From Membranipora membranacea (taxonomy: Eukaryota; Bryozoa; Gymnolaemata; Cheilostomatida; Membraniporidae): a stretch of 64,000 bases of DNA. This document shows positions 3,841 to 59,685 of the stretch, one piece after another. The first letter of the stretch is position 1; each line of letters opens with the position of its first letter. The translations under genes and the position numbers were made by a program. The notes under the pieces are model-generated. The model made no database searches. It saw only the letters and a program-made list of their open reading frames with translations, and had not been told where the DNA came from. The stretch covers positions 24,674,001 to 24,738,000 of the forward strand of contig OU612072.1 of the NCBI GenBank assembly GCA_914767715.1, given 5' to 3'.

Positions 3841-3955
3841 ACTGTCACTTGTTGTTTGGTTTGATATGTACAATTTGGCTAAAACAATCGTAGAACAGAA
3901 ACTGAAAGTTCAATCATAAGATATGTTACCTGATATGTGATAGAACATTTGAATA

Positions 3956-4641: not shown

Positions 4642-4704
4642 TGAGTTTTTTAACACAGCTGCCGTACACTCTTCAGAGTTCAATTCAGGCTTGGCAAGGA
4701 TCAT

Positions 4705-7553: not shown

Positions 7554-7879
7554 GGTCATGATCTAATTTTTCAACCCTTATTATGTTACATTCATGAAAT
7601 TATTTTAAACCTTTATTGCCAAGTTATGTCCCGAGAGATTTATATAATACAACACAATACAATAAACTATGCTGACTGTCATATTCAATCGATGATGTCT
7701 GTGCCATTTTTGCAAATATGTACTTCGCATGCGAATACACATGTTCACATATATATGCAATTTACTCTAAGCGGTTGCGATAAAATTACCCTCAAGACAT
7801 GAAAGTATGACTGACCGGTTGATTTACTTGCAATGATGTATGCATTGTAAGAATTTGCCTCACAACATCCATAACCAAC

Positions 7880-8975: not shown

Positions 8976-9075
8976 ATACAACATTCATACAAAGAAAGTT
9001 CAACTATTTTATTTGTTCATCTATTTTTAATCATTTTAATGTATCCAGCCACAGAATATAACCTATAATATCAAA

Positions 9076-9704
9076 TGATAATTATAATATATTAGTAATT
9101 ATTTTTTAATTTATCATGCTCATAGTAATTACCATAATAATTACTATGATACCACAGACCACAGACCCAGCTTCACACTAAGCTTCACTCGTACTGACTT
9201 GTGACATATTGGGGAATAGCAAACTTTCAAGAAGGTTGCTGTTTGTCCGATCAAGACTGCTATCCACCGAACCTTTGATACTAGTGTGTAAGTTTAGTTT
9301 ATGAAATAACTAACGTAGAACCATCATGCTTGTCTGTATGTTTTTCACTAATAACTTCTGGGTAATCGGTCAATGACCTTCTTACTTTCATATTATATTC
9401 ACCAATGTCTCAAATTACATATTGTAAAGTTTTGAGGATGCGCAAAGCTACCTGAGATATGGCCAGATAAAAAAAGCTACTCTCAATTTTGTCAATTTGC
9501 TTGTTTTGATGGCTCCCTGCAGGTCACATGTCATGTCACACCATTACGTTGTTTCAGTCTGATGAAAGTATTGGCTGCTGTAATAATAGCTTTCATGGTA
9601 GCGATAAAGATAGCCTAGGATATTAACTTGAGCTATTCTACATACTTCATGTATTTCCATGTGTACCATCTATCCGTGTGGCCACACTATAGTCAGCTTG
9701 ATAG
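9076..9704. other. Intergenic, AT-rich palindromic patch
   Basis: Around 9115-9150 there is an imperfect AT-rich palindrome built on AGTAATTA/TAATTACT. Nothing else is supported. Confidence 0.3.
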
Positions 9705-9719
9705 CACTATCCCCATTTT

Positions 9720-10048
9720 ATGTTAAGAGGATCTGCACCTGGAATATGTACTGATTCAAAAAAGGGTTCATTCAAAGCGCTGGCTGTCAAAGTCCAACAC
9801 AATCCACCAGCATATGCAGTACAACTCAGGTACTCGACTGGTACTCGCAGTGACGAGAAGCATCCTGCAATAATTGTGACTTTCATAACATTTCAACACT
9901 TAATTAAGCCATCAAAATTTTAGGATCTGAGGTGATATGCTATGAGCAAGCAACCCGGTTTTTTCAGGCTTCTATCTATGACATGGACTGGTTTGTGACA
10001 GTGACCAATCTTGGCGAAGCAAATATATACTTAAACTTAAAACTTTAA
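9720..10048 (+). CDS. Two possible exons of an unidentified gene
   Basis: 9720-9830 encodes a protein-like segment (DSKKGSFKALAVKVQHNPPA) that could end at a donor at 9830 (CTCAG|GTACTC) or simply run to TAG at 9923. A strong acceptor (GGTTTTTTCAG) ends at 9967, and 9968-10048 then reads ASIYDMDWFVTVTNLGEANI and on to TAA, which looks like a terminal exon. The phases do not join directly, so an intervening exon or a different donor is needed. No domain is recognised. Confidence 0.3.
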
Positions 10049-12479
10049 TGTCACAGATTGTTCACTATCGATGCAATTTGTACCTAAAACTAGTTTCTCA
10101 AAGGCCATTCCATGCAAAAATTTATTTCATTTAAGATTGTTGTGTAAAGATGTACTTCCGCGAGGAATATGAACCCCTTACAACAAGTATCAGCATAAAA
10201 AAGCTACCACCTATGATCGATCACCAATGAAGGTAAGAATTTGCTAAAAAGCTCAATTAATCATACAGGGTTAGTGGTGATTGCATTATCCAAAGTCATT
10301 TATGTAGGACTTGAGATATTGTTGCAACAACTTTGTACCTGGAAAGCTATCATACATGGAAAGCTAGTGTCCCTGGCAACAGTTTTTACCTGGCGAACCT
10401 TTGTACCCCGGGAACTTCTTTTTCTGACTCGGCAACCTTATCGGCTATTGTCAAAACCCAAACGGCAATAATCTGCCCGAATCGAACATTATCACAGAAT
10501 GAGCGAAGGTTATTTATAGCTTTACATTATGATAAATAGCAATTTGTAAATGTCACTTGCACCTGCTCCACTTTCTAAATAGAATTAGTGAGTTTGGATA
10601 ATATATATAAATTTTTATTGCCGATCAAAGTCAATGACAAATAAATAGATGAATAAATAAATAACATAAATAAAAAATAAGACGTCGAATGCCACATTTT
10701 TCATTGTAGGTCACATCAACATCTCTACGTTTTTGTCCGCACCCAATAAAATCTCAATCAAACTCAGAACTGATCACTTACACAGAACGTTTTGGCGATT
10801 ATCCACCCATTCAAATGCATTGATGGTGACATAACTTTAATTGGCAAGTTTTGATCAAACCCTATCAACATTTCCATTTTTTAACTTTGGCCTGAACACA
10901 TTTTATCAGAGTAGTTAATAGACATACACATGGTAGCTAATACTAAGTTACATCACGATAAAGCAAGCTTTTATGAGCTGGCCCCTAGAATTTTTGTAAC
11001 CAGTGGAAAAATAAGGAAACAGTACTACTCCATAGTGCCTTTGGTTGCCAGTACAACCTGTAGCACTCTGTATGCTATAACACTAGGTTTGCTTGACAAG
11101 AGAATAAACTGCACTCCTGCTATAGAAATCTTTGAGCCAGCTTCATAGCTTTCATGAGTTGTCTTATCAATCTTAGGTAATTCTACCTTATAACCGACAG
11201 CTTTTCACCTCAATTTATTTTAGTGTTTAGCAACCTATACAGGTCTCTCTCAAAAGCTTGAAACATCCAAGTTCATAGCAGGCAAATGCATTAAACAATC
11301 GGACAAAACTTCCGAATGAGCTAAACTTTATTGGGAGGATCACCTTAAGATGGATGTAAAAAGTAGTAATACATGATATTTCATTCAGCAATGTGGTGTT
11401 CCACGTACATGGCCTTATCCCACGCCAATAGTCTGTTTGTGGCCCTGCATGCAGCCCCAAATGGCTAGCATCACATGTCATTCAATTATCATAGCCACTA
11501 TCACCAAATCACCGAGCAGTAAATTGTGCTGAAAAAGATAACTAGAAATAATTTTGAAAAGCTTGATAAAATTATCATTATTTTTGCAGTGCAAAATCTT
11601 TTGTTACTGATTCACTGTTAATTATATAGTATCGTTGTTCAGGGCAAATAAATGACTATTACACTATCTATTTTCTGAGCATCCAACTAGCGATATGAAA
11701 CCTCTCTTAACTGAATATGAGTTACTAGCAAATACATAAACACATTCATGTCTCTGTGTTATGCACAGGTCGTGATTGTCATTCATTGAATTCTTTGAAA
11801 TCAATGAATGTTCAGTTGAACTTTAAGCTACTGTTTGAATCGGAAATACAAATTAGATAAGTTCATTAAAATATGTAGGGAGGCAAAATACCAGAATGCA
11901 CCATACAATTGAAATCAGGCACAAGTGGTAATGTCAAAATAAGAAAGTGAAGTACTTGTTGGATATGATAGCAGCTGCGCTATTTTGTGAACGTCATAGA
12001 CTTTGACATTGGAAAGGAACAGCATATTGGCTGACTAAGATCATTTGGTCTTCCTTTCATTCATGAAATTATTACATATTTAACTCATATCTTAAAAGCT
12101 TAAATTAATGTTTGCTGGAATTTTGATAAGCAGCAACACTTCCTCTTACTAGGGAAAGTCATCTCTACGAAAATTTTCAATAATTTCAGAATTTTTATTT
12201 CTATTTTATTATATTTCTACTTCCATCTCACATACCAAATAAGTGCTAATTGATATCACAGTTTATTTTGAAATGGTTCACTAACTTCTATTCAAAGTGA
12301 CCTCTTACATTAAACTTGTTCTATGTCTGGCTTGATATGAAGTGAAGATCCTGCGATTACGATTCGTACTCTAATGAAGAAATTAGGACTTCAAAATGTT
12401 CAGAAGTTTACTTTTGACATTTCATGCGTTGACAAGACAAGCTGCTTAAGGACCCAATCAATTGTACTCAATCATCTAC
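10049..12479. other. Intergenic, nothing supported
   Basis: Only chance open frames (for example 10241-10539, 10930-11148 and 11227-11481) and a 10-bp stem-loop near 11780-11812. A short minus-strand stretch before a donor at about 10765 (GT|GTAAGTG) could be a small exon but has no supporting partner. Confidence 0.35.
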
Positions 12480-12720
12480 ATCACTGTCCCTCCTCCTCTC
12501 CATTTGTCTACCTCTTTTTCCTGTTCCAGCTACCTTGAGATTCGCTACCTTTCTAATATCACAACCTTATCTTGGCGGTTTAGATGACCAAAGAAACTGA
12601 CCCTCTTTTTACTCACGCTCAAAGAGAATGGTTCCACTCTCACTTCCTCTCTACTGTTTTCATTTCCTACATGGTCTTTCCAAATGGCGCTATGAATGTA
12701 TCTGAATATATCTTCATCTG
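12480..12720 (-). mobile_element. LINE remnant, C-terminal part of an RTE/'craniofacial'-type ORF2
   Basis: On the minus strand one frame reads IWKDHVGNENSREEVRVEP and then SKKRVSFFGHLNRQDKVVIL before stops. This corresponds to the C-terminal region of RTE-like ORF2 proteins, where a WKD-(I/V) region is followed by a 'RRLxWFGHVxR' block. It is a short relic of the same general family as the copy at 22.1-24.4 kb. The upstream extent is unclear. Confidence 0.45.
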
Positions 12721-12959
12721 TTGTTTCAATTCACTCCGTATAATGGGCCACGCTTCATTTTCCAAAACATGAAAGTAGAGTTGTATTATTTGAAATGTAT
12801 CAGAACACAGGGTCAACAGGTGATTTTTGTTTAATACCCTTTGTATTTTTGTCATCGTTAATTGATTGTAGAAAGGGCAGACGAGGTTGTTGAGGTTGCA
12901 GTCTGTCCTTGGCAAGTGTTTTGGCTGGCATGCCACGTCAGTTTAAAGATTTGTCAAAA

Positions 12960-12982
12960 GCCTCTCTGTCTAACAGAGAGGT
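12960..12982. repeat. Short stem-loop
   Basis: CCTCTCTGT is followed by a 3-base loop and ACAGAGAGG, giving a perfect 9-bp stem. No T-run or other context assigns a role. Confidence 0.3.
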
Positions 12983-13305
12983 TTTTGAGTGAGAGAACTT
13001 TAAAATTTTTCTAGGGTTGATTTTTGATGTCAAAGCTTATTAGTTATATGACAGTAGTTGAAATGTAGACAGTTCTCTTATTAATGAGGAACAAAACATG
13101 AAAGTTGGTCTTATAGCTGTCTTAAAGGAGTCTGAAAAGAATCTTCTTACTGCACAGTACTCCTTTAAGGTCTCGCCATCGGTCCCATGCAGCTCCAGCC
13201 ATTTTAACCATCTCAGCACCACATCATCCTTTTTTATCAATCAATTTTCGAAGGAACTCGAAATGTGATACAGCAGGCAGTTATTTGTAATCATCATTAT
13301 TGTAA

Positions 13306-13455
13306 TTCCTATGTCTCATATAAAATATTAGCTCCCTGTGAGGATGCGTATTCTATCGAGGTATTTTACAACAAATTTTTGTCAATTTGTTGTAAAATAC
13401 CTCGATAGAATACGCATCCTCACAGGGAGCTAATATTTTATATGAGGCATAGGGA
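13306..13455. repeat. Near-perfect 72-bp inverted repeat with a 6-base loop
   Basis: The left arm (13306-13377) and right arm (13384-13455) are reverse complements over 72 positions, with only two differences seen, both of the G-U type if transcribed. The loop is TTTGTC. The right arm contains the last part of an intron and the first 30 bases of a coding exon (starting at 13426), so the left arm is an inverted copy of an exon boundary. I see no target-site duplication. This looks like a template-switch or fold-back duplication rather than a classical transposon. Confidence 0.9.
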
Positions 13456-13728
13456 CGTCATTGTGAACCTCAAAACAGAGTTTCAATCGTTTCTAAGCGA
13501 GTATAGGCTAAGGTAAGTGACTCATGCAGCAAAGCTATATATTCATGTGAACAAATCACACTTTCCAGAGATGGAAACATGAATGAAGTTATTTGAATGC
13601 GCAGAATTTGACTTGGTATCTAAAGATAATAACAATATGACACTCTATAGAAGTATCTCTTTATCAAAACTTGATGTCTCTGTTACAGAAGGAGACCGAC
13701 ACATCCACCGAAAAAATCAAAAACTTAA
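13426..13728 (+). CDS. Last two exons of an unidentified gene
   Basis: Exon 13426-13512 follows TCCTCACAG, reads in phase RHRDVIVNLKTEFQSFLSEY and ends at a consensus donor (AAG|GTAAGTG). The terminal exon 13689-13728 follows a strong acceptor (TGTCTCTGTTACAG). The phases join exactly, giving a basic tail containing RRRPTHPPKKSKT and then TAA. Both splice sites and the matching phases make this a good model. The family is not recognised, and upstream exons were not found before the inverted repeat at 13306, which may have disrupted the locus. Confidence 0.5.
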
Positions 13729-16074
13729 AAAGAATCACCAGATGTAAAGGCTGTCTAAACTTAACATCAGATCAGACAAAATATGGAAGCTTGTTGCCTA
13801 ACAATTATAGAATTGTCTTCCACACGTGTTTGTTAATCTTGGTACCATGATGTCCTCTGCTGGTCTACTTTTTAAGAGACAGTGGATTATCTGGCATGAT
13901 CTGCTTTGTTCCAATGTTATTTATTCAAATGATTCATGTTTTTTGAGAGATTAAGCATAATGTGGCCCTGCCCTAAGAGCAATTTGGCCACCAGTGATGA
14001 AATTGGTAGAAGTTTTTAATGAAATGCAGACTTTTTCACTGATTCCTCATCTTGGAGCTCTCCAAATGTGTTCAATGTGAAGTGGTGTTGCTTTTAAGTC
14101 ATTTTTTGGTCAATAAAAGCTAAAACTTTGGAAGATACAACCTTCAAATAGCCTTATTTCCACCTAAAATTTATGATAGAGGTTTACTGTTGCACATTAA
14201 AATTTATAATAAATGAGACTGAGGCTATTTTGAGCATCCCCTTCTGCTCATTTTCATGGTCTTGCCGAGGGTTTTTTGTGAGTGAATTAAATTTAGAGCT
14301 CAACACTAAGTTGTTAGTATAGCATGAAAATACCATGTTAGCAGTCATCTAACCGGGGTGATCACATTTTTTTCCCATTTACTTGGGGCAATCGGAAATT
14401 CAATCGACATTGCAATTGATGATAACAGTGATATATATATTACAGTGCAAATGAATTCCCGCTTAAACGGTCAAATAGTTTCTTGTATTGGTAAAATCAG
14501 CGAAAATAAAATATATAGTCACACACCTAGCAAAAGGCCAGTGGTTGTTTCCGTGAAGAATCTTGCAATGTATCTGCTCGGTGCTTTTTCTGACTGCTTA
14601 CAGTATGCACAAAGATGATAAATTTGTGGTAGGATCTTGACATGGAATATCATAAGTTTCCATGCAAAAATTTTGCGCTCCGAATTAATCACTATCAATT
14701 TGAATGGAATGAATTCGTTTCTATCATGATGAAACTTCTAATTCAATTTGTCGCGGTCAGGAATTGGACCTCGGCCTCCTAAGACACAGCCTTTCACGCT
14801 ACCTTAGTGAATATGACACAGCAACCTCAATTTATTGTAGCATCTATCTTGCCAGGTCATCCGCACAAAAAATCACTAGATACAATGTCAGTTATAGTGT
14901 AATATTGTCTAGCACTGTACTGTACTATAACAAGACAAAAGTGAATGAAAACTATTTAGCTGGCTGAGATTGTTTTTCTTATTCCATGTTTTTCACTGTT
15001 AACTTAACATGCCATACTGTTTGTTAAACTATTAATTACTGAGGCTTTGCTAGGAGAGACTGGCTGGAGTGAAGTAGATTGATTTAGATTCAGCATTGGG
15101 ATCTATACAACGATAACTAGATATTGACTTGTCAATTTCTATGTTGTGTTAATATTATCTATAGGCTACAGATTCAAACGGGACAACTCTTATTCTAATC
15201 TGAACTACTGTAATTTCTTTTTAGTTGTCCTCTCTTGTCAAATGGATTAACCTAGGCTGTCATCCCCCACACAAGCAACCCACACACCCACCCATTCCCC
15301 ACACCCCAGGCCAGTGTTGATATATTGTTAAAAAGTGAACAAAGCTATATTTATTCTTAATTCTTAAAGATTACATTAGCATAAACAAAGTGTACATGAT
15401 TCTGATCACTCCAGCTGTCAGACATGTAACCCATACATGGTAATCACTAATAGTACTGAGTAGTTTTTTTGCCAGATTAATGCTTAAAGTTTGAGCTCAG
15501 TACCCACTCAGTCTTTATTTCTTATGGTTGTTTTTTTAGGTTATAAAAAAAATTATAGTATGTGGAACTGAACAAACTCCTAGCAGTCAGCAAGATTCAT
15601 GTGACGCACTATGGCAAGCTGCTTGATTTTTGTGGAGGTAGTATTTCACATAAGATCAATATTTGATCTTCACAATTGTTTACTAGTAATATCAATTTAA
15701 CAAGTTTGGTCCCTTTGTGGTGGTGTTGGAAGGATTTCAAAAAGCTGTCTACAAATAACGTCTGTACCTATAAATAACTCAGTATTAAGCCATTAGCTTC
15801 ATAATTGTTCAGGGGCTTATGTTTTCAACAGGTTTAACTATATAGTGTGGTTCAGGCTGATTCAACTTTGCTAAGATTTCAAACTCTGAAGCATTTTGTC
15901 TCTGTCTGAGACTTCCTAAGTATAGTACACTAGTGTTGTAACTATCTCACATGGGTGTCCAAATGTCAATAATATCTGTACTGGTTGGGCATAAATGGAT
16001 AGAAGATTATTTTTCTCGACAGTCAGAAGAATGATTGACTGACGGAAATCGCATGTGTGGCATTGGCGGAAGGA
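13729..16074. other. Intergenic, nothing firm
   Basis: Several isolated short open frames (14358-14618, 14764-14967) lack splice context or recognisable motifs. A C-rich patch lies at 15263-15312. Confidence 0.35.
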
Positions 16075-16300
16075 TCACTTCTTTTGATGAATGGGCAGAA
16101 AAATATTAGAAATTTTATTCTGCCTGCCCGGGGACAAACGCACCACTGCTATATTGATCAAATGACTATGCCTTGTGACTATTGATATATAGACCCAATT
16201 ATCATCTATCTTCAATCTAAATGCCTGCCCCCTCCCGTTGCCATGACTGATAATCGCAATAAAGATGAAAGCATCTAATGCCTCTTCTTGCACCGTCATA
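16075..16300 (-). CDS. Caspase-like p20 exon (partial or relic)
   Basis: After an acceptor (CCACAG, exon starting at 16300) the minus strand reads TVQEEALDAFIFIAIISHGN and continues GRGQAF, then KIDDNWVYISIV. In the caspase p20 subunit the strand carrying the catalytic His has the form D-x-F-hydrophobic(5-6)-SHG-x-x-G, followed by a D-G/D-D turn and a helix. The match includes the His-Gly pair. The partner block with the catalytic Cys (QACxG) was not found in the roughly 600 bases downstream on this strand, and no clear donor ends the exon. It could be one exon of a caspase, an NLR-type protein or a relic. Confidence 0.42.
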
Positions 16301-17089
16301 CTGTGGCCTTATGAGCTGACAGTGAATGTCTAAGTGTGCATAATATTCAGGTGAGAAAAGATTTTGCCAGATCTAGACAGTTAAGATGATATCCTGGTGT
16401 CAGAATATTGTTGAAATGGAGACATTTTATACATTGACATGGCTTTGCAAACAGATTGTATTATTTTCATATTTTTTGAAACCATCCTTCTGTTTAAATT
16501 CCAATTCAAACCATTTCATATTGGGAAATCTCCATTCACTTGTATAAAAATATATGCAATGCCACAAATAGAAGGTAGCACTCAGATTTGTTGCATAGTG
16601 AGGAATGCGCTGAGTTAGGAAGGGCGCTATCAACCCTGCAGTTTCCAGCCTAGAGTACTTACATATTTATGCATACAAGACTCAGATTTCTGATTATCAG
16701 AAATATCTCTGCTCTTCAATATAAATTTACTAGATTGATACTTTATTGGACAAATGAGGCCATATGGATAAGAAAAGATAATAATAAATATAATTTAATA
16801 AATCTACGGTCCAGGCTATGCTTGAAATAATTAAAGTTTAACTTATCCCATTATATTTCTTTGTATCGATGTAAATACCAAACTAGAATTAATAATTTTG
16901 TGATGTGTTACAAAGCCTGATGGGAATCAAAAACTAATAATTGGTCAGTTCTACATCATCAGCTTGATCAGTGTGAAGTGAAATTACTGCATCAAATTAT
17001 CTCAATTTTTTTAGCATTCCTCATTTTTTTAAATTGACTGCCGAATTTTATATCTTTCATCTTCTTTCAGTTTCGGGTTTAGGTAGCGC
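16301..17089. other. Intergenic
   Basis: AT-rich, no supported feature. The 5' untranslated part of the LINE at 17.1 kb begins somewhere after about 17070. Confidence 0.35.
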
Positions 17090-20000
17090 CAGAGTAGGCT
17101 GCACCTAAACTTGCTCTCTAGTTTTTCAGCAATTACTCTGTCAGAACATGGACTATAACATCAGAAACATACTGACGGATAGATCTTGACGCTGCCGTTC
17201 GACTGATCTAAGCTGGATAAACGTATCACTTACTGCCGGACGGATATTCTCAACTTAAAAAACTATAACAGGTGTGGATTTAAAATCATCAACAATGAAA
17301 TCTTCAACCCAATCAGTAAACACTCATTAAACAAAGGACTACCAGATCAAAGGAGACAATTAAGTAAACATGGATATACCGAAAATGGATTATTCTATAG
17401 AAAAACTAAACGAGGTTGCAGAGCTAGCAAACGAAAACTCAGACCGTCCATTCATAGATTGGCACCGAGTCAGAATGCCGTCAAGTCAGTTCCACTTAGA
17501 TCCAATGCAATTGCACTCCCCTCCGTTTTGTACACAAACTGCAGATCATTAAACCAATGGAAACTTGGTGAGCTTACAGGCTATGTGCACATTTACAAGC
17601 CGGATATAATATGCTTAACCGAAACATGGCTTGATGAGATCAAAGAATAATCAATAAACATCGATGGCTATAAAAACCATTTCTGCAACCGTAAAAAGCG
17701 AATCGGGGGAGGGGTTGCCATTCTCACCTCACAGAAACTCACAACTAGTACCATATCATCTCATACCACAAGAACATTCTCAGCCATATGGGTACTTGTT
17801 AGTATCGGTAGCTACAAACCCCTGATAGTATGTTGCCTCTACCACCCGCCCAATGCTGATAAGGACACTACTCAAGTCTATATATCCTCAACCATACTTA
17901 AACTGTCGAAACGCTTTTCCAAGGCGCAGTTCCTATTATGCGGGGATTTTAACAGACTACCTATAGACGATATCACTGCTCAGTTTGGCCTCTCCAACCT
18001 GGTTAACTTCAATACTAGGGAGGAAGCTATGCTGGATTTGATATTAACTGTCATACCGCAATACAGCACAAGTGAGAAACTAGCCCCCATAGCAAACAAT
18101 GACCACTGCTGTATCTACCTAAAAGGAGAGGGCATAGAATCAACTAAATATATTAGAACAAAACGCCGACTAGTGACACCACAACGAAAACTCGATGTAC
18201 TCGCCGACCTAGCAAGGGAATCTTGGGATACAGTTTTACAGGCTAATGATGTCCACAGCAAGGTTAGCACCATGCACAGCATCATTAATAAAACACTTGA
18301 CAAGCACTGCCCAATGAAGACTACTAAGGTAAGAGCCGATAAACCACCATGGATGTCTGACACTATTATTAAGACAATCTCTGCGAGAAATGAGGCGTAC
18401 AAAGACAAATGCACATCATACAAAGTGCTACGGGCTCTGGTACAGAGACTAGTACGCACTAGCAAAAGAAAATATGTGAACAAGACTCTTAATAAAAATC
18501 GTAACTCTAAAGAATGGTGGGACACCGTTAAAAAACTCACCAATAAAGCACAACAGTTACACAAATCTGATCATATCATCATCGAGGACAAGAAACTACC
18601 TAACGCTGAATTCTGCCATAAACTGAATAATTACTACATAGAAGTCGGGGGAATACGAGCTACCCCGCAACCTGCCCAACAAACGACAAACAGAGCAAAA
18701 CTACAACACCTTAGTATAGGTGAAGTTAAAATGCTGATGAGAACGCTGAACACCTCAAAGGCTACATCAACCGAAGACTTCCCAACATGGGTGTCCAAGG
18801 AAGCCATTGAGGATGTATCAATTCCTCTAAATGATATTATCAACCACTCACTCGACACTGGCACATTCCCTGATATGTGGAAACGCGCGCAAGTAGTTCC
18901 AGTACCGAAGACCAAAACTCCCACCATCTACAAAGACTTCCGACCCATCAGCCTATTATTTCATCTCGGCAAACTCCTAGAGCAGGTGATCCTAAGTAAG
19001 ATGACGACACATCTCGCTGATATAATAGATGTGAATCAATATGCCTACCAACAGAAACTGGGTACCACTGACGCACTACTGCAGCTACTCGATGACTGGA
19101 CATCAGCTCTTGATCAGAACTCAAACATTAAATTTGTCCAGAACGCAGTTTTAGATTTTTCAAAGGCGTTCGACAGAATGCAACACCCGATCTTATTGTC
19201 TAAAATGAACTCGCTAGGATTTAAATCCAATTTTATCAACTTGGTAGGAAGTTTTCTAAATTTAAGACAGCAGTGTGTCAAGTTTTCTGGACAATTTTCC
19301 ACATACAAGCCCATTGATGTTGGTGCACCACAAGGCACTAAGCTTGGGCCTATTCTCTGGCTGATATACGTTAAGAACTTGAAAGCTGAAGGTTTTAATT
19401 GTGTGAAGTACGCAGATGACACCACATTTTATAAGCCTATTGTAAACCTCACCGATGACAATGTCTCTGATGCTATATCAAATGCTAATAGTTGGTCTTT
19501 AGAAAACAGTATGCTTCTCAACTCAAGTAAGACTGTTGTATTGAATATTGCTTTTTCTGACCGACCTGGTATGAACCTCGATGTAAACCCCAGTGATGAT
19601 ACTTTTATCTCCCTATCTAAATCTGCTAAACTATTAGGAATCACTGTAGACTCTCAACTGATTTTTAGTGACCACATAGACTCTGTCGTGAGCAAATGCA
19701 ATAGCAGACTGTATCTGATGAAGCAGCTTAAGACCATGGGTATGAACACTGCAGGACTGATAACATTCTATGCTGCCAATGTCAAACCCGTTCTTTCCTA
19801 CGCCTGCCCAGTATGGTTTCATTTTATCTCCGAAGCCGATAAAGAGAAACTAGAGAAAGTGCAGAGATACGCTACACGCATGATGATGCCACACAGAGAG
19901 CACTATGACGATAGACTGACCAAGCTAGCCTTACCCTATATATCCGACTTCTTAATGTCTCTATGCAGCGAACACTTTTTAAAAATTTCAACCGATAATA

Positions 20001-20250
20001 CCCATCCGCTGAACAATAGAATCGGACCTAACACTCAAAGAAAATCCGCCCGTAAAGCAGTAATCGACAAATACCGACCCAGCAAATGCCGCACTGTAAA
20101 ACGGCAGAACAGCTTTTTTGAATTCTATATGAGATTTTTCAACTAGTGCAATATTTTTCCATCAATTTTTATGTAAACATTTCAATTTTGTCAACCTTTT
20201 TAGGAGTGATACCGGAAATGTCTAAATAAACAAACATCAAACATCATGAG
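17090..20250 (+). mobile_element. Nearly full-length CR1-like non-LTR retrotransposon
   Basis: The element carries a 5' leader, an endonuclease-reverse transcriptase ORF2 and a short 3' tail in which AACATCA is repeated, as in CR1-type elements that end in short tandem repeats instead of poly(A). The left end is approximate. No target-site duplication could be defined. It is inserted in intergenic DNA between the caspase-like exon and gene A and is the best preserved retroelement in the window. Confidence 0.8.
17207..20146 (+). CDS. LINE ORF2: APE-type endonuclease and reverse transcriptase, one internal stop
   Basis: One frame stays open from 17207 to TAG at 20144-20146 except for a TAA at 17648-17650. 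Endonuclease blocks appear in order: TNCRSL, CLTETWLDE, GGGVAIL, CGDFNR, LDLILT and NNDHCC. The RT follows: NAVLDFSKAFDRM, then GAPQGTKLGPILWLIY, then the catalytic YADD at 19409-19420, then AKLLGITVD. The C-terminal thumb and tail end in FFEFYMRFFN. The stop falls in the endonuclease just after the ETWLDE block, so this copy cannot make the complete protein, though the 705-residue part from 18029 is intact. No ORF1 is visible upstream. Confidence 0.85.
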
Positions 20251-20426
20251 GCCCTTCGTAAACAATGTAGAAATAAATTTTGACAATTGATATTTCTGTT
20301 TATTTGACGCGTCATTATGAAAAGAAATTATTCACAATAGCTAACTGAATATAAATGAACTAATACTACATAAATTATCTATCATGGTAAGATATGTCAT
20401 TGATAAGAATGTTGTCCGATAACGAC

Positions 20427-21029
20427 TCAATTCAGTGATCTGTAGCATCGCAGCTGACTACAACAAATCTTGTGCTGGGGCTCACAATTCACCAGGAAGC
20501 CTGTTGATCTATTGAACTTTACTGAACTAGTTTCTCGCTTCTTTCTCATAGGTGTACATTTGATATAATTTGGAAGTAAAGGCAAGTCTTGCTGACACAT
20601 GGAAGATCGCTTTTTCCTATTTGAACGCTCAAAACATACTGACACAGTATGTTTGACACAGTTTTCAAAGGCTCGCCCTCCACGATCAGCTGTTTCTACA
20701 TAATGACGCACCTGGCCAAATCTTTGCTCACAGAACCCCGTCAGAAATGTCGGATTGACACAATGGCAATCTTGTGCCTAGAAAAGATAACAATCTCTAT
20801 TTAGAAAAGCAAAAGAATTGTAAAACATTCTTCTTTGAGCCAAAGTAATCCGTAGATAAGCGAAAGTTTTAATTCCTATATCTAACACATCAATTCAAAG
20901 CACCAGTGTGGTTAAAGCTAAAGGACTTACTTGTCTAACTATCTCCCTTGTTGTACAGGTCCCTGAAGTTGTCTGTATGATGCAACACAATAAAGAGATG
21001 ATCAAAAGTGCAGCTCTCTTTCCAAGCAT
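20427..21029 (-). CDS. Secreted 12-cysteine proprotein, family member A
   Basis: Exon 1 (21029-20931) encodes MLGKRAALLIISLLCCIIQ, a signal peptide, then TCTTREIVRQ, and ends CAA|GTAAGT in phase 0. Exon 2 (20777-20427) follows a strong acceptor (TTATCTTTTCTAG) and completes a 149-residue protein ending at TGA. The mature region has 12 cysteines: CTT, CHCVNP, GFC, ENCVKHTVSVC, MC, LPLLPNYIKC, NC and ICCSQLRC. Two basic sites (NRKKRS and MRKKRE) fit furin-type processing. It is clearly paralogous to gene B, which has the same order of cysteines. The satellite array at 21052 begins about 23 bases upstream of the ATG, so the array occupies the promoter or 5' leader position. AATAAA on this strand at about 20296 could serve as the polyadenylation signal. 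The biological role is unknown. Confidence 0.72.
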
Positions 21030-21051
21030 ATTGAGTAGTTATGGAATCCGC

Positions 21052-47613: not shown

Positions 47614-48407
47614 ATGTTGAGATCTGTACCTGGTTGTTGGCTAAGTTTTGCAGCTGCATTCACACTTACAGCAATCCAAAATAATTTTAGGGGTCCACCA
47701 GGGATGAACTGGGTTTTAGTGGGGACAACAACTCTCGAGTTAAGTTGTAATTACCTGAAATCCTCAATACGTGGAAATAGAAGAAAGAGACAAAAACTTG
47801 ATTAGGATTGGTTCATTGTCTGCTAATTCTGTAGGAAAATGCCTTTCTTTGATATTATCTTTGAGCATTGGTGCTTCTTCTGAAGTTAGAAATTCAGTTA
47901 GTTAGAGTTTGGTTTCTAAACTTTGTTTCCCAATAAATTTGTTAACACCAGCAGTACCGTCTCAATTGAAATCTGATCTACAATAATCTTTAGGCTTTAA
48001 CTCGACTTAATCCGAATATCGAACCAACCTTTCCAATTCATTACAATGTGTTAGAATTCTCTCAATATGAATGATTGAGTGTGAGTTCATGTTCCCTCAT
48101 GTTTCAAAAATGTCTTATTGTTAGGAGTTGCTTATATCAATATTGCTATGTGAAGTGGTGACAAGTTTACACCTTTTCACCTTTGAACATTTTATCTTTT
48201 CAACAGACATAGGGCCATTGTGAGACACCAGTGCCATTTAACTATACAGGCCAAACAAGAGGAAAGCGATCTGCAACTAACTCAATAAGAGAGTTATGCA
48301 AAAAAGTGATCACAATCAATTTCTATGTCAAGGCTAGTAGAAAATGTGAGGTGAGGAAGGATCTGGAATGCTTCACACCACTGACTACCATTTTACAGGT
48401 TGAATAA
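47614..48407 (+). pseudogene. Cysteine-rich family pseudogene C (related to D and E)
   Basis: The putative exon 1 (47614-47739) starts MLRSVPGCWLSFAAAFTL and ends at CTCGAG followed by TTAAGT, where the relatives have GAG|GTAAGA or GAG|GTGAGC; the donor G appears changed to T. Exon 2 starts at 48207 after TCTTTTCAACAG. It is clearly homologous to gene E exon 2 (TPVPFNYTGQTRGKRSATNS, then IRELCKKVITINFY), but its second codon is TAG and the second central cysteine reads Phe. Homology is lost after CEVRKDLECF and the frame stops at 48405-48407. Three independent defects make it a pseudogene. Confidence 0.72.
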
Positions 48408-48608
48408 TAAAACAAGTCAGAATAGTAAGAATAGTAAATTTTTTGGACTTAAAATTTTATTGTAACACATAGTAAAAAGTATGCCAAAAGTAAAGATAAA
48501 ATATCCAATCACGCATGTTGTAATCTATTTTAGTATGACTTACTAAAGTGTGAGGAAGGAACTATCTGCAATTGAATCATTTTGACAGCAAATTTAAAAG
48601 GTTCAATT

Positions 48609-49248
48609 TTATTCAAACACCTTGTAACATTGTGGCTGATTACAGCAAATCCTAATTTGGATCACACACCTATTGGTTAGGTCTGCAGAATGCTGTCCTC
48701 CATTAGTAGAACTAACTCCTTGCTCATCTGACTTTGGTGAGCATCTTATATAGAATGGGAGGATCGGCAAACTTCGCTGACAGGGGAAAGACCCTGGAAA
48801 TGACGAAGGAGGTGCACATACTGCCACAGTTGATTTAACACAACCTCCAAATGCACGTTCTGTCTGATAACTTGTAGCCGGTTCTCCTGTGAATCCTGCC
48901 GTAGTTTTGCTGTTGTTTATTATCAATGGATGCAAAATATCGAAGTTTTCCTTACAGAATCCCGGGAAGAATGGCGGATCAACACATTCACAGATTTGCT
49001 CCTAAAAAAGTTGTAAAAACGCGTAATGAAAATATGACATATAACTAACTTTGTCCTGGATGCCTTCACAGTATTGGGCCAACAGAAGTTGAAATTCATT
49101 AGACCCTGTGAGTTAATTCTTAGTATGTGTAGACACTTACTTGTTCCCTAACCACAATTGTGGTACAGACTGCAGAGGTTGTCCCTAACTGAATCACCAA
49201 ACATAACACTGTGTGAAGTAATAGCCTAGCTCCCATTATGTAAATCAT
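48609..49248 (-). CDS. Secreted 12-cysteine protein, family member B
   Basis: Exon 1 (49248-49141; a second ATG at 49236 has good context and aligns better with gene A) encodes a signal peptide (MGARLLLHTVLCLVIQLG) and VCTTIVVREQ, ending CAA|GTAAGTG in phase 0. Exon 2 (49001-48609) follows TACAACTTTTTTAG and ends at TAA, giving about 166 residues. The 12 cysteines after the signal core match gene A: ICECVDPPFFPGFC, GGCVKSTVAVC, CQRSLPILPFYIRC, RC, then RICCNQPQC. Unlike A, the basic cleavage sites are absent, so processing may differ. AATAAA on this strand at about 48455 fits polyadenylation. It lies divergently beside pseudogene C and genes D and E. Confidence 0.72.
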
Positions 49249-49704
49249 TATTTGAAGATGGGCAGTTCTGTTTGTCCACTGCTATATCAGAATGAACAGC
49301 TCACAAGATTGATATTGCATTAATATGGCAACTGAAGGAAATATGTTTCCCCATATGAATAATTTTGTGACTAAGCATATTTGGTGCCATCGTTACAAGG
49401 GTGGCGCATGTTTATATTGCTGTTTTGTGCATCATAGAACCTGCCTCGGAATAGGGGAGGGGGGCTCGCATAAAATCTTTAATCTCCTTCTAACAAATTT
49501 ATTTTTATAACATGCCGTAATGGCTCAAAATATGTTGTGCTAGTTAGAAAACCAGGTGCATCACTGAGCAGTATTAGGAAAGGCCTGGCATTTCCTTACC
49601 ATTAAAGACTTTGTTTGAGGCTGCTCTTTTGTATCACATCTTATACTCCATATTTTATTCTATCATGTGAGCGATTTTCAGCTTTAGAATCCAAATATTG
49701 AGGA
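49249..49704. other. Intergenic upstream of gene B
   Basis: An open frame at 49325-49510 contains clustered cysteines (CLYCCFVHHRTC) but no signal peptide or splice context; it is not called. Confidence 0.3.
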
Positions 49705-50023
49705 AGTTATGGCCTCTCAAACTTCCAAGGTGACGGCAATTTATCGGCAGTAAGAATCAGCCGGCAATCCCTAGGGTACGTCACAACTGGCCAATCTAGT
49801 TGGTCCAAGTGGCGTGATGGTAGCGTCCTTGCCTATAGGTATGGGGACCACCCAGGTCTGAATTTTGATCATCATCTTATCTTTGTGATTATTAGTGTAT
49901 TACCTAATAACTCATAATGTCCATGTCACATGTCTATGGTTGTGACATACCCCAGGGGAAAGATCCGCTTATTCCCAATGCCGATTGAAGGCAATCACCC
50001 TGGAAGTTTGAGAGGCCATAACT
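49705..50023. mobile_element. TIR element with an internal tRNA-like segment
   Basis: Terminal inverted repeats begin AGTTATGGCCTCTCAAACTT and match over about 29 positions with one mismatch, continuing more weakly. The interior at about 49797-49870 has tRNA-like boxes (GGCGTGATGGTAGCGTCC, then CCAGGTCTGAATTTTGATC). The target duplication is uncertain. It lies between genes B and D. Confidence 0.75.
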
Positions 50024-50202
50024 TGAGTCTTTAAGTGTGTAAAGGAAATACTTATCAGGTTGACCGCTATCGCTTGATATCTAATTTATTGTTTGACTTA
50101 GAAAAAAACCGGTACAGGCCCTGTTTATCTTGGTTGGTTTACATCTCTGACTAATAACCCTATGTGAGTTAATCATGTCTGTGATAAAACTGAAAAGGGG
50201 GA

Positions 50203-50290
50203 AGGAGGTAGCTCAGTTGGTTAGAGCGCCTGCACTCTAATACGCAATCCTTGGAGGTCTCAGGTTCGAATCCCGCTGCAACCTACCAAC
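50203..50290 (+). repeat. tRNA-derived SINE head
   Basis: A GGTAGCTCAGTTGGTTAGAG A-box region and a CAGGTTCGAATCCCG B-box region lie at tRNA spacing, but the acceptor and T stems do not pair, so it is not a working tRNA. A GC-richer tail with AGAGAGAG follows to about 50430, typical of a SINE body; the 3' end is unclear. Confidence 0.6.
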
Positions 50291-50559
50291 TACGGGGCTC
50301 AATTGACGGCCCAGGTGTGTTCCGACCTGCTTGCAAACTGAGAGCAACTTGGCGCTGGATACGGCGGCCGCAACCTTGGGGCACCTGTATTTCTCAGTCT
50401 TCAGTCAGAGAGAGAAAAAACTTCCGATTTTATCCCACAAGGGATCTACCACACTATTCATTGCACAAAAAAATACATGAAATATCTAATTCAAAGACTG
50501 TTTTGATTGCTCTCACAGAGAGAGTCATTTTTCATCTGCATCATTAACAACAAAGATGA

Positions 50560-51416
50560 TACAGCTAATATTATTTGCCAGCATTTGAAAATATTATTTG
50601 GAAGTCGTAAGTGAGGTGTCTAAATTGATCATAATAGGGGTGGCACTGAAAAACAACATGACAGTTCACCATTCAGTTGTCACAAGAAAGTCATTATGTG
50701 TTTATTTTTCTGTCCATGCCAAACTGTCTGTTACATTTATCGAGCTGAACTAGGAGGAACAATGCCAGGATTTCTACTACAGGACATGTTGTGACATACC
50801 ATCATGGTCTGTGTTTGCCAAAACAAGGAAACCAAAGATCAGTTAGGGTTTCGAATGAATAAGGAAATTATGAAGGAAGGACATTTTTCCAACTGACCCA
50901 ATGAGGTAGAGCCACGTCGCACATGCAGGAAAACATCAATCATTTATCTGTTTATAAAAAATCAGGAACTAAAACTTAAAGATATTTTTAAATTGTCATA
51001 AAAACCATTTACATATGATATTCATCATTGCGATCAAATATTTTTGAATTTGCCGAACTACGATTAGTAATGGTCATGGTATTTTTTTTGACATGCGCAT
51101 CTGAATCATTATTACTTAGGGGTAAGGGAGATAATGTTTGACATAATTTGCTTATTACTTGATATAAATTCATCACTTTTTATGCTCTGTTACATTTCTT
51201 TGGATCAAGAATACTCTAATTTTTAGACATGTGTGATGAAAGGGTAGTTTTCAAAGGTCAGTGACAATGATTTGATGAAGAGATAAGATATTTATAATCA
51301 CATGATACTTGTGGATGCACGCCCCAATTACAAGTGGATAGTTGCTAAATATCGGCTGCATGCCATCGATTGCACAATTCACAATTGATGAATGTTTTCC
51401 TTGTCTAGCTGTGAGG
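50560..51416. other. Intergenic
   Basis: No supported feature. Confidence 0.35.
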
Positions 51417-51420
51417 CTGG

Positions 51421-51428
51421 TATAAGAA
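51421..51428 (+). promoter_or_regulatory. Possible TATA element of gene D
   Basis: TATAAGAA lies 96 bases upstream of the ATG at 51517. No good initiator is seen at the expected distance, so this is weak. Confidence 0.3.
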
Positions 51429-51516
51429 GTGACGGTAGAACTTTATCAATCATAAAGTCCCTCCTACCACTTGGAGATAAAAAAACAATTTGAAGGAGAG
51501 AAGAGTTATACTTATC

Positions 51517-52400
51517 ATGGTTAGATTGTGCAGTTTCGCCGGAGTGGTGATGTTGATTGCTGTGCAAACAGTTCATCCATATTATGGGTCTTGGTTTGGA
51601 GGATTCAGGGTGCAAGAATCAGTTACTGAGGTGAGCATAGAGCGGCAGGTAACCGCCCCCCCCCCCCTCCCTTCCCCCTAAAATATATCAGGCATGGTTG
51701 AAGTAACCAAAACTATTTCAAATTTTTAACAGAAGATATTTCCTCAAAAGAGTCCTATATTGTTCAGCCTCTCTAGAACCTGCAAATAATCTATGTTTTT
51801 TTTATATTTGAAGAGAGTGTATAAGCTTTGACCACTCTGAGTTTTGACTATAGCTCAATTAGTGCCTAGTGTATCTAATTTTTGAGAAACATTTACCAAA
51901 GAAGCATTGTAATCATATGGATTTATATCCAACGTTTAGATCTTTCCCTATAAGTTTTGTGTTAACCTGCCGTCTTTAGTATTTATGTGAAACCATGGTC
52001 GATGTTGATATAGATAAAAGAGCTATGTGAAATTCTGGTCGCTGCTGGTATAATGAAAGGGGGCAGCTATGGAGGAAATCTAATAAGAAAGATATGTAAG
52101 AAAGTTATGACAACATATTGTTTCATATCCGATAATAGGAGAAAAAGATCTACTGCGAGCGCTAGGGCTGGTTTCCACACTAAGACAGAACAGAAGATAC
52201 AACTCCCTGATGAATGCTCTCAGGACATTGATATTGCTTCAAATGATAACTCCCTAAATCTTGAGCTTCAGCGAAACGGATTGCCTATCAACTCAAAATG
52301 TGATAGTTGTCACTGTGGCTGTTCATACAATGTGTTTGTTGATGGGCCTTGTTTCACAAGAACTCGATATATATGCCCAGGCATTAAATCTAAACCATAG
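51517..52400 (+). CDS. Secreted 10-cysteine proprotein, family member D
   Basis: Exon 1 (51517-51630) encodes a signal peptide (MVRLCSFAGVVMLIAVQTVH) and ends GAG|GTGAGC in phase 0. The intron contains a 12-base C tract (51656-51667). Exon 2 is modelled from 52014 (after TATAG) to TAG at 52398-52400, giving 166 residues. It reads KELCEILV, then NLIRKICKKVMTTYC, a furin-type site NRRKRS, DECSQD, NGLPINSKCDSCHCGC and a final CFTRTRYICPGI. These 10 cysteines match gene E. The acceptor region holds a near-duplicate of about 53 bp, so a better-looking acceptor at 51989 (CCGTCTTTAG) leads to a stop within 17 codons. The 52013 acceptor preserves homology. Function unknown. Confidence 0.68.
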
Positions 52401-52607
52401 ATCAGGAAATCAGCAAATCAGAGACCATTTTCAAGTTATTTGATATAATTTTTCTTGATTACTACAACATTAATGGCTTGTAACATTCACTCAGTTTATT
52501 ATTTTACACACTTACTTTACATACTCTACGGATATTTGTTGCGTTTTTCATGTTTCCCTACACAGTTATCTATCATGCAGAAACATCTCAACATTTCATA
52601 TTTTACT

Positions 52608-52783
52608 GTAACCAAACTTATTTGAAAGAAAACTTGGCTGATGTAGCCATAGCTGCTCTGATGAGGGCCTGGGATATATACTTGGATAACTGCAAAGTTT
52701 GCACTGGTTGCTGTTTGTCTCACATCAGAAAAAATTTGGTTGGCAATAGAAAGTGTTCTGAACTGCTACCCTGTTACTATTAA
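52608..52783 (+). pseudogene. Possible relic of a family C-terminal exon
   Basis: Directly downstream of gene D, one frame ends in WDIYLDNCKVCTGCCLSHIR and then KCSELLPCYY before TAA. The C-x2-C-x2-CC-x13-C-x6-C spacing resembles the C-terminal block of D and E (C-x2-C-x-C-x-C, then two more cysteines). There is no signal exon or clear acceptor, so this may be chance. Confidence 0.3.
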
Positions 52784-52800
52784 ACATTCACATGATGGGA

Positions 52801-54420
52801 GAATATGTACAAAATAGCTAAGCCTTGTGAACGATCAGACTGTAGGTTAAAAGTTCCTGAAGAATCAACATGCCCACGATCAAAAATGCACATGGGTACA
52901 AGATTTGCAGAACAATTACTTCTGGAATTCATCTTAATTGCTTTGTTGTCAACTTTTTGAAATCTTATTGCTGATGTCCCAATAAACTTATTACAATTTC
53001 ATTTTTAGAAAATCTGCTCTCAATAAATGAGATCTCCAGATTATTCCAACACTATTGTCTACCCATGTGTGTTTCGAACTGGACCTAAATGCTGTCCACT
53101 GAAGGGAACATCACATCTCATCACATATTTTACTTTCATAAAATTTAAGTTACATAATGTCAATTTCTGTGTCAAACCTGTGTTTTAATGGTGACACCAA
53201 TAAATTTGTTTGTTTTCCGTAGCAATCAGCTTTACATTCATGATGATATATTCAGGTACTAAAACATGGTAATCATGGGTGTTTCTGGTGTTGAAAAAAA
53301 CAAGCTTTTTCTTGAAAAAGCGATTTTTCAAAGGGATAATTTATAACCAGTTGTCTTTTTCTTTTACAAGGAAAAACAATTCTTATTCATACTTCAAGAA
53401 ATATTTTATTTACTGTCATTTTTACTATGTCTATTTGATCTGTTTTTCCTATTGGCTGTTGAGCAAAAGCTTTCAAAGCCCACACCAGCTTGCTAATGCC
53501 CTGATCTTTCTGAATCTGAAAGTGTAAGGGTTCTACATTCTATATTATTTTTATGACAACTCATGTTTTAATTACCAATTAACTCTGAACCGTATAGTCT
53601 CGTAGCTCATCCCAAAAATTTAATCATTTTGTTCTGATGCATATAAGGGAGAATAAAGAGTGAAAATGTTCTTGTCACAAAAGAACTTTACTTTTAAGTG
53701 CCTGAGGAATTAATTTGCTGTTTAGTCACTGTGTCATGCAAATAGAAGTTTAACAATTCTTTTTAACAGTTTTTGCTTGTGAAGCATGGACACAGTGGTA
53801 ACAAAAAGATAAGTTGATGGTAACAAAATTTCTTAGAACACCTATTTCAGTTAGTTTCGTCTATCTGTTTTGATCTGTCCATCATGTCTTCTTTTGACGT
53901 ATCAAGGGCCCTCTTTTGGCATTTGAGATATCAATAACATCACCCCACCTATCCCGTCACAAATTTTTGGGACTTGTATTTTGCAACATGAATGCAACTC
54001 TTAACACACAGACTTTTCAACTTTTTTGTGATATTTAGAGATATAAATGTTTGACTTGTCATGGTGAGTCTGATTTCCTGGTCCATCGTCATTAATCATA
54101 AGCAGACCAATTGATCATTCCATGAGTAATCAATTTGTTCTGTGTGTGATCACACTGGATAGAATTGTTTTGTTGTCATGAGTTCAAACCTAAATATAGA
54201 TTAAAATGCTATATCAAAGGAAATTTCTGGCTATATTATTTTGGTTGTCTCCTAGTTCATGCAGATAATTAGCTGAATACACCCACAATCTTCCTCACAG
54301 GCTTGGATCAGTCAGTAAGGTACAGTTGGAGACATGAGAGAAATTCTAAATGTAAAGAGGAAATAGTTCCACGTGCCAAACGAACAACAACTCAACAACT
54401 TATCAATGTGTTTCCTTTTC
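52801..54420. other. Spacer between genes D and E
   Basis: AATAAA at about 52981 could be the polyadenylation signal of D. Otherwise AT-rich with no supported feature. Confidence 0.35.
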
Positions 54421-54425
54421 TTGGG

Positions 54426-54462
54426 TATAAAATGTCAGGCCAAGACTTATTACAATCATTCT
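54426..54462 (+). promoter_or_regulatory. Core promoter of gene E (TATA plus initiator)
   Basis: TATAAAA at 54426-54432 is followed by TCATTCT (54456-54462), a match to the initiator consensus YYANWYY, with the A at 54458. The spacing of about 32 bases is canonical, and the ATG at 54512 follows 54 bases later. Confidence 0.6.
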
Positions 54463-54511
54463 GCTTTGCTGCTTCGTGCTAACACAGGCATACACAACTC
54501 ACGGTTGACCA

Positions 54512-55805
54512 ATGTCTTTTAGGATGTTAAGGATGAGCAGTTTGATCGGGGTATTCGTTCTGATCGTCATTCAAGTTGCGAAGCCACAATGGGTTTTTGA
54601 GACATCAAGTGTTGAGGTAAGATTTTGATGATGATATCTGCCTATATGATATAGCTATTGTTATGTTGGATCATCACACTTGGGATTATAGGATTTTATT
54701 ACAATGTTCAATTTCAATCTTGTAACGGTATCTAGGCAACCTCTGAAACCATAAATCATAACGTCAAAATCGACCGATAAGAGCTTGTTCAATTTGAAGC
54801 GTATGATTTGAAATCATTGGAACTGGGCGATTTTGGATGACATCAGATGTATTTTCACCACTTTCCAATGCAATTTTTGGAAGGAAAATTTATTGGGCAT
54901 GTGTATCACACAATTACGCATCAGCACATCTGATTCATATTAAAAAAAATTCACTACTGCTCCTCTTATTTCCGAAAAAAGAAAGAGGAATTTGAGCTAT
55001 AAAAAGAGTCATGTTCTTCCCGAACCAATTGCTAAAGTCATGATTTAGTCATGCGTTGGTAACTGGACCCAAATAAAAAAAATTCAAAAATGGATAGATC
55101 ACCCCATTTGTCAAAGATCTTTATGTCTAACCTACATTCTAAGTCTTATTTCCATAGAATTTGAGGCTTCTTGACTTATTTTTGTTTCACGATATATCAG
55201 ATTATGATAGTCCTCTTACGAAAATAAATCTGGTTCATTCAAATGGTGACACAATTCAAAAAGTCAACCCAAAACAACCCTGCACAAGATTTGATTATAA
55301 ACACAAACGAGATGCTTTATATCTGCATAATATGGCCCTTTGAATCAGATTAAGGAAATATGAACTTATTTCTGTTTTACAGACAAGGGAGAGGTGTGAA
55401 ATACCTGTGCCTCCTGGTTTTTCTGGAAGGGCAAAACGAGGAATAGCGACTAACAGTATAAGGAAAGTGTGCAAAAAGGTTATTATATTTCAATGTTGGG
55501 TCTACCGTAGCAGGCGAAAGAGGGCATCAAATCAAGATGACTCAAAAAGCTTTACCATCAAACTGCAGGATTCAGTGTACAACACCACACACAAGATCCA
55601 AAAGAGACAACTCCGATCTGAATGCCGAGGGGACATAAACCCAAACCCAAATGATTTACCATTACAGTCAAACGGTTTACCATTGAACACCATATGTGAT
55701 GGTTGCTTCTGTGGATGCGCTGGGTCACGAGGCCCCACTGATATTCTGAGACAATGTCGGGAGAGAGTAAACTACATCTGCCCTGGCATCAGACGAAGAC
55801 CATAG
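54512..55805 (+). CDS. Secreted 10-cysteine proprotein, family member E
   Basis: Exon 1 (54512-54616) encodes a signal peptide (MLRMSSLIGVFVLIVIQVA from the second in-frame ATG at 54524) and ends GTTGAG|GTAAGA in phase 0. Exon 2 (55383-55805) follows TCTGTTTTACAG and ends in TAG, giving 175 residues from the first ATG. It contains RCEIPVPPGFSGRAKR, TNSIRKVCKKVIIFQC, the basic site SRRKRA, a second site IQKRQ, SECRGD, NGLPLNTICDGCFCGC and a final YICPGIRRRP. It has ten cysteines, aligned with gene D. It has the clearest promoter in the window, and AATAAA occurs at about 56188. The protein should be secreted and cut by furin-like enzymes. The family and function are not recognised. Confidence 0.75.
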
Positions 55806-59425: not shown

Positions 59426-59685
59426 ATTAGTGTGTCCAGTTGACTGGAATTTATAATGTTGAATGAATGTCTATTGGTCCTGATATGACTGACATTGATC
59501 TCGACTCAAGTTTGGTCATTTCACTATGGTTTTTAGTCTAGACATTATGCCTCGATTTATAGTTGTCACTCACGCCAACCACCTGAATGTTATGCAACGC
59601 ACTGATTCTTATAACAGCAAAACTTTTCTCGTTCGCAATTGGTGCAGATTAAGTTCCATGTTAACAATTTATTTATTATTTGCAG

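Follow-up and report, generated by a model that had tools for sequence, protein, structure and literature searches.

The window analysed here, a 64,000-nucleotide stretch of the genome of the bryozoan Membranipora membranacea (bases 24674001-24738000 of contig OU612072.1, abbreviated C8; the genome comprises 339 Mb, divided among 18 contigs), carries four genes, designated A, B, D, and E, and a pseudogene, C, whose predicted products are secreted and rich in cysteine; a sixth copy, G, lies 49 kb to the left of the window. Judged from their sequence, A, B, D, and E are real genes. The six clear copies probably constitute an old family of disulfide-rich, secreted proteins, one that appears restricted to its lineage and persists through birth and death of genes in a small cluster on a single animal chromosome. 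The state of the copies indicates a slow turnover with decay, not expansion. By their alignments, A/B and D/E are homologous pairs and C is a broken relative of E, while the common descent of the A/B-type and D/E-type genes is likely, not proven.

The family is an orphan, though of a kind already familiar and not a new type of system; apparently undescribed, it would join the many lineage-specific secreted cysteine-rich proteins and by itself leaves the general picture unchanged. The cluster does provide an internal natural experiment on what a convertase cut does, as A, D, and E carry a convertase site and B is without one, and it makes birth-and-death decay visible at base-level resolution.

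Gene structure and the likely link between the two pairs

An earlier note on this DNA had placed the four genes and the pseudogene at positions that were confirmed, and had described genes in which a single phase-0 intron separates a signal-peptide exon from the exon for the mature part, an arrangement that exon lengths, donors, and hydropathy bear out for A, B, D, and E. Each of the four begins with a hydrophobic N-terminal exon (best 12-residue hydropathy 2.25 to 3.27), from which a signal peptide was predicted by hydropathy with its end set by eye, followed by a GT donor, a single intron, and one further coding exon. Given that exon 1 measures 99, 96, 114, and 93 bases in A, B, D, and E, respectively, all multiples of three, the introns are in phase 0; they open with GTAAGT, GTAAGT, GTGAGC, and GTAAGA and span 153, 139, 392 (to the second acceptor), and 766 bases. 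Polyadenylation-like signals lie downstream of all four stop codons, and TATA-like boxes stand upstream of the start codon, at 96 bases in D, 98 in E, 180 in B, and 122 and 87 in C, with none nearer than 371 in A.

Gene E, on the plus strand, consists of exon 1 at 54524-54616 and exon 2 at 55383-55805, the latter encoding 140 residues with 10 cysteines and both a RAKR and a RRKR site (the second exons of all four genes are given with their stop codons). Gene D, on the same strand, has exon 1 at 51517-51630 and an open exon-2 frame at 52023-52400 (125 residues, RRKR, and 10 cysteines matching those of E) that requires a weak acceptor. On the minus strand lie gene B, with exon 1 at 49141-49236 and exon 2 at 48609-49001 (130 residues, 11 cysteines, no R-x-[KR]-R), and gene A, with exon 1 at 20931-21029 and exon 2 at 20427-20777 (116 residues, 11 cysteines, two RKKR sites). 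Pseudogene C occupies 47614-47739 and 48207-48407 on the plus strand.

Over the aligned precursor, A and B are 37% identical and D and E 38%, and each pair score was reached by none of 2000 shuffles, whether cysteines were left free or held fixed. The earlier treatment of A, B, D, and E as one family did not hold on those four genes alone and becomes likely once G is added: the score of {A,G} against {D,E} was reached by 0 of 1000 column shuffles, as was that of {A,G} against {C,D,E}, and the former match spans the block C-[KV]-K-x5-C-x5-R-x-K-R. Common descent is also supported by the gene layout that both pairs share.

Several results nevertheless weigh against this link. When columns were shuffled, 878 of 2000 trials reached the score of {A,B} against {D,E} (850 of 2000 if the cysteines stayed in place, 89 of 200 with gaps), and hhalign assigned the cross-group comparison of the four genes a probability of 0.1%. 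The link is also weaker when B or C joins the alignment, with 26 of 1000 shuffles reaching the score of {A,B,G} against {D,E} and 64 of 1000 that of {A,B,G} against {C,D,E}. Single pairs in the four-gene test were reached, out of 2000 shuffles, by 8 and 17 (A-D), 424 and 402 (A-E), 1503 and 1492 (B-D), and 595 and 525 (B-E), and G-E was reached by 237 and 204. Of the nine single cross pairs, two are conspicuous, G-D (2 and 1 of 2000) and A-D (17 and 34 of 2000); the remaining seven, namely A-E, B-D, B-E, G-E, and each of the three pairs with C, are not.

Extent, divergence, and decay of the cluster

Copy G, an A-type paralogue at C8:24625846-24626106, was found by a whole-genome protein search with B and again with A; its protein identity to A is 82% in exon 1 and 57% over the C-terminal 86 residues. 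With E as query the genome search returned E, D, and a match in the C region, and with D it returned D and E; B retrieved B, A, and G together with two matches elsewhere (E-values 0.8 and 1.1), and A retrieved A, G, and B with one match elsewhere (6.8). No clear relatives outside A, B, C, D, E, and G were thus seen in the 339 Mb with these four queries, a search that scores only the candidates from a first look and may miss distant copies; all six lie within approximately 105 kb. Three profiles run over 264 kb around the window likewise yielded no additional clear member.

A possible decayed relic is located at 1827-1997 on the minus strand, where the Smith-Waterman score was reached by 0, 2, 14, and 48 of 1000 shuffles against D, A, E, and B, respectively. 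Hidden Markov model searches within the window gave this relic E-values of 0.047 and 0.3 with two of the three profiles and left it outside the best 12 of the third, and over the 264 kb the three profiles gave 0.08, 0.18, and 4.8. With G outside the window and this weak relic at its left end, the family is not confined to the five copies that had been listed. Two open reading frames (ORFs) considered as further copies were rejected: that at 52484-52780, behind D, scored within shuffles (244, 919, 679, and 333 of 1000 against A, B, D, and E), and that at 59499-59885 was weak (21 of 1000 against A; 204, 296, and 573 against B, D, and E).

Beyond this genome, a search of 5.77 billion proteins, which requires shared 5-residue words, returned as sole relatives near-identical unspliced copies of E (P0001; 2 of 140 residues differ) and B (P0002; 1 of 130), from a source labelled lgn. 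Distant relatives were absent from its matches and query A retrieved no relative, the queries including neither D nor B alone. Scans of viral contigs with E and with the B/A alignment retrieved no relatives.

The divergence between paralogues argues for age rather than recent growth. In exon 2, the proportions of nonsynonymous (pN) and synonymous (pS) differences are 0.40 and 0.60 for A-B (0.4% of 500 bootstrap replicates gave no positive difference), 0.37 and 0.78 for D-E (0 of 500), and 0.24 and 0.46 for A-G over 86 codons; as pN is below pS in all three comparisons, constraint is indicated, and nothing in them suggests positive selection. The second exons have diverged far (pS 0.46-0.78; protein identity roughly 37-57%), and at the blastn settings used the DNA similarity of D-E and A-B is confined to coding sequence, C-E also sharing about 22 bases of the intron end. 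Taken with pN below pS, this confinement marks A-B and D-E as old duplicates under protein-level constraint and not a fresh expansion. The suggestion that the family might be evolving fast accordingly agrees with the low protein identity and disagrees with the constraint.

Decay is evident in several copies. In C, TTAAGT occupies the donor position in place of a GT donor, an in-frame stop lies at the start of exon 2, the second cysteine of C-x7-C is lost, and the C-terminal half is missing. In G, which has a TATA-like box, the frame opened by the exon-2 acceptor stops after 34 codons and the family sequence continues in another frame, the ORF there extending past the family stop position. Gene D, counted among the genes in the earlier note, is not clearly intact: a 40-base tandem duplication (51984-52059, plus strand) covers the start of its exon 2. 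Just before it lies an acceptor whose pyrimidine tract is good, at the 91st percentile of 15434 AG sites, and splicing there would meet a stop after 16 exon-2 codons; the alternative AG, which preserves the frame, ranks at the 9th percentile of the same sites. The ORF of A is intact; its DNA similarity to G, nevertheless, breaks off some 14 bases before the start codon, and a minisatellite (21055-21592) sets in 26 bases before that codon, at the site of G's TATA-like box. Related minisatellites, built like this one from unit variants of GGCCAAGTTT, lie at 38480-38743 and 41788-43021. B and E show no visible defect, though B has no close TATA-like box. Of the six clear copies, therefore, two are broken (C and G), two doubtful (A and D), and two to all appearance intact (B and E); with clear relatives limited to these six and no noncoding DNA match within the pairs, the description of the family as locally expanding could not be sustained.

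With two copies broken and two doubtful, it might be asked whether these are functional genes at all, or merely chance ORFs or a set of pseudogenes throughout. Such a reading is highly improbable, given that pN falls below pS between paralogues, that all cysteines match within each pair despite 37-38% identity, and that the ORFs of B and E are intact and recur nearly unchanged in a second source.

The comparison of A with G, which sit in opposite arms of an inverted duplication described below, adds a further aspect. Their divergence is 11.1% in exon 1 (11 of 99 bases), 26.3% in the compared part of exon 2 (67 of 255), and 29-36% in intron pieces, against 15.6% over 2103 noncoding bases of the duplication (14.4% in another block); Fisher p-values are 0.0016 for exon 1 versus exon 2 and 4e-5 for exon 2 versus the 2103 noncoding bases. 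As the introns diverge as much and pN lies below pS, the strong divergence of exon 2 is no evidence of positive selection, and a differing segment age, or gene conversion elsewhere, would be the simpler reason. The better conservation of the signal exon than of exon 2 is a hint of an effector-like mode. This hint is tempered by the fact that pN and pS are indistinguishable in the signal exon (0.106 and 0.126) and by gene conversion, which could also have kept it similar.

Cysteines, cleavage sites, and predicted role

After the signal peptide, A and B each have 12 cysteines and D and E each have 10, all of which match within each pair. The LP-x4-C block reported as common to the four genes is indeed present in A, B, D, and E; the second reported motif, C-x-(K/V)-K-x-x-V-x-x-C, matches none of them as written, and C-[KV]-K-x5-C matches all four. 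RKKR or RRKR occurs where it had been described, in A (twice), D, and E, and not in B, so that the label of proproteins suits the three genes with convertase-type sites and not B, from which R-x-[KR]-R is absent. The basic site of A, D, and E lies exactly 5 residues after C-[KV]-K-x5-C, and G has R-Q-K-R there. Runs of four basic residues arose by chance in 378 (A), 168 (D), and 678 (E) of 5000 shuffles, a frequency that diminishes the weight of the runs themselves and leaves the fixed spacing as the only thing that makes the site notable. The general features of secreted convertase-processed precursors, namely a signal peptide, a body rich in cysteine, and a basic site for cleavage, are found in the sequences of A, D, and E, B lacking only the basic cleavage site. 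In G (L014:1687-2109, plus strand), the variable loop before C-x7-C is rich in Gly, Lys, and Pro and resembles irregular collagen repeats, a feature absent from A and B.

A mechanism consistent with these features may be outlined. The precursor would enter the secretory pathway and fold into five (D/E) or six (A/B) disulfides, whereupon a furin-like convertase would cut the basic loop between the C-x7-C and LP-x4-C elements. Signal excluded, the segments between sites hold 6, 2, and 4 cysteines in A, 3 and 7 in D and in E, and 12 in the uncut B. Because RRKR splits 3 from 7 cysteines in D/E, at least one disulfide would span the cut if all cysteines pair intramolecularly, and the product would be a two-chain, disulfide-linked protein; E has a second furin-type site, RAKR, with one cysteine before it, which makes its cut products less certain than those of D. 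The three segments of A could in principle separate. Given that B shares the 12 cysteines of A yet has no site, cleavage would modulate the product rather than define it, and the simplest model for all members would be an extracellular protein locked by disulfides and nicked in some of them. Two AlphaFold2 models, built on alignments of 3 and 2 sequences, were unusable (mean pLDDT 32.5 and 34.9) and lend this outline no structural backing.

The failure to match insulin, spaetzle/NGF-type, or Wnt families, already remarked in the earlier note, was borne out. No Pfam family matched A, B, E, or the G part at E-values up to 10, or D exon 2 at up to 1; in NCBIfam, the exons of E and D drew three off-target matches (0.12-0.24), B and A none; and PDB sequences contained no relative, all matches lying above 0.07 and involving unrelated molecules. 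Pfam includes the spaetzle/NGF, IL-17, and Wnt families, and insulin, spaetzle/NGF, Wnt, IL-17, and defensins were all rejected for want of a profile match. No description of such a family appeared in the literature searched, a weak negative in that the search was by text rather than by sequence. The products are most likely extracellular effectors. A role in defence or recognition is, at low confidence, somewhat likelier than one as hormone or growth factor, given that genes of the cluster appear to arise and decay and that A and G are more alike in the signal exon.

The nearest known system in layout is that of the big defensins. These mollusc and horseshoe-crab proteins resemble the present genes in having a signal peptide, an R-x-K-R site, and a cysteine-rich C-terminal part, with two exons in the oyster genes Cg-bigdef1 and Cg-bigdef2 (PMC3182236); their exon 1, however, adds a propeptide and an N-terminal domain, whereas exon 1 here encodes little beyond the signal peptide. 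An R-x-[KR]-R site is present in A, D, E, and the G part and not in B, and would mark the boundary between pro-part and mature part. That the family comprises antimicrobial or host-defence peptides, each with a signal, a pro-part ending in RxKR, and a cysteine-rich C-terminus, is a tentative possibility, favoured by this layout, by the clustering of genes with birth-and-death decay, and by the A-G contrast between signal exon and exon 2. The cysteines here nevertheless number 10-12 in another arrangement, not six, the six-cysteine beta-defensin-like C-terminal domain is lacking, and no profile matches. Nor is the charge consistently positive (after RRKR, 0 in D and +5 in E; +4 and +3 in the later segments of A; 0 for the whole of B), and the two known copies of E, like those of B, differ little.

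Among other two-exon systems, the sea-urchin 185/333 (SpTransformer) genes are likewise clustered and composed of a short signal exon and one mature exon, although their proteins are not known to contain cysteines.

A hormone, growth factor, or cytokine (cystine-knot, IL-17-like, or relaxin-like) that has diverged beyond the reach of profiles is rather doubtful. The convertase sites of A, D, and E, the N-glycosylation sequons of A, B, E, and the G part (none occur in D), and the two-chain arithmetic of D/E would suit such a molecule, and a convertase-cut, disulfide-linked two-chain product would follow the same principle as insulin and relaxin. The insulin/relaxin A-chain pattern is CC-x3-C-x8-C, however, and the cysteine spacing here does not fit it: A/B end in CC-x4-C and D/E have no CC. 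Cystine-knot ligands such as spaetzle, neurotrophin, noggin, and PDGF/VEGF are likewise secreted, convertase-cut, and cysteine-rich, yet no profile or PDB-sequence match to such ligands was obtained and no knot spacing is recognisable by eye. A venom- or secretion-type toxin family is unlikely; its predicted secretion, abundance of disulfides, and well-conserved A-G signal exon would be in keeping, whereas the six clear genes, two of them broken and two doubtful, and the absence of a family match are not.

The inverted duplication and neighbouring sequences

The window also includes one arm of an inverted segmental duplication, at 3632-21043, the other arm lying about 49.0 to 28.4 kb to the left of the window; 9 of the 24 matches listed (28 in all) are collinear and inverted, joining approximately -48995..-28438 to 21043..3632. 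The arms carry G and A, an open and a broken copy of a G-protein-coupled receptor (GPCR), and a pair of immunoglobulin (Ig)-like-looking ORFs. The GPCR copy in the window (6606-7550, plus strand) has an internal stop at 7257-7259. The rhodopsin-like copy in the left arm (L015:7842-8786, minus strand), about 32 kb left of the window, is open and matches 7tm_1 (E-value 6e-13) and, by sequence, the beta-1 adrenergic receptor (7e-7) and adenosine A2a receptors (4e-5); pN and pS between the two copies are 0.042 and 0.248. Also within the duplication, 4516-4758 and 3632-4197 on the minus strand present a signal-peptide-like stretch, GTAAGT, and then an Ig-like-looking ORF, and the two left-hand Ig-like-looking ORFs had no Pfam match. 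A more ambitious proposal, that the family embodies a new lineage-restricted disulfide fold, employed both cut (D/E, A) and uncut (B) as a secreted signal or effector, with A/G duplicated alongside an orphan rhodopsin-like GPCR to which they might be functionally linked, is very unlikely.

Elsewhere in the window, a tRNA-like sequence with the look of a short interspersed element was noted by eye at 50200-50450, and ARAGORN found no tRNA in the window. Reverse transcriptases of the long interspersed element type occur among the window sequences along with the GPCR, and exons judged by eye to be SOS-like lie to the left; together with the introns, all of these are indicative of an animal genome. 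On the right flank, at about 145-157 kb in window-relative position (L027-L028), there are several copies of a Gly/Tyr-rich ORF of the form (GLYGQYGKGTGG)n.

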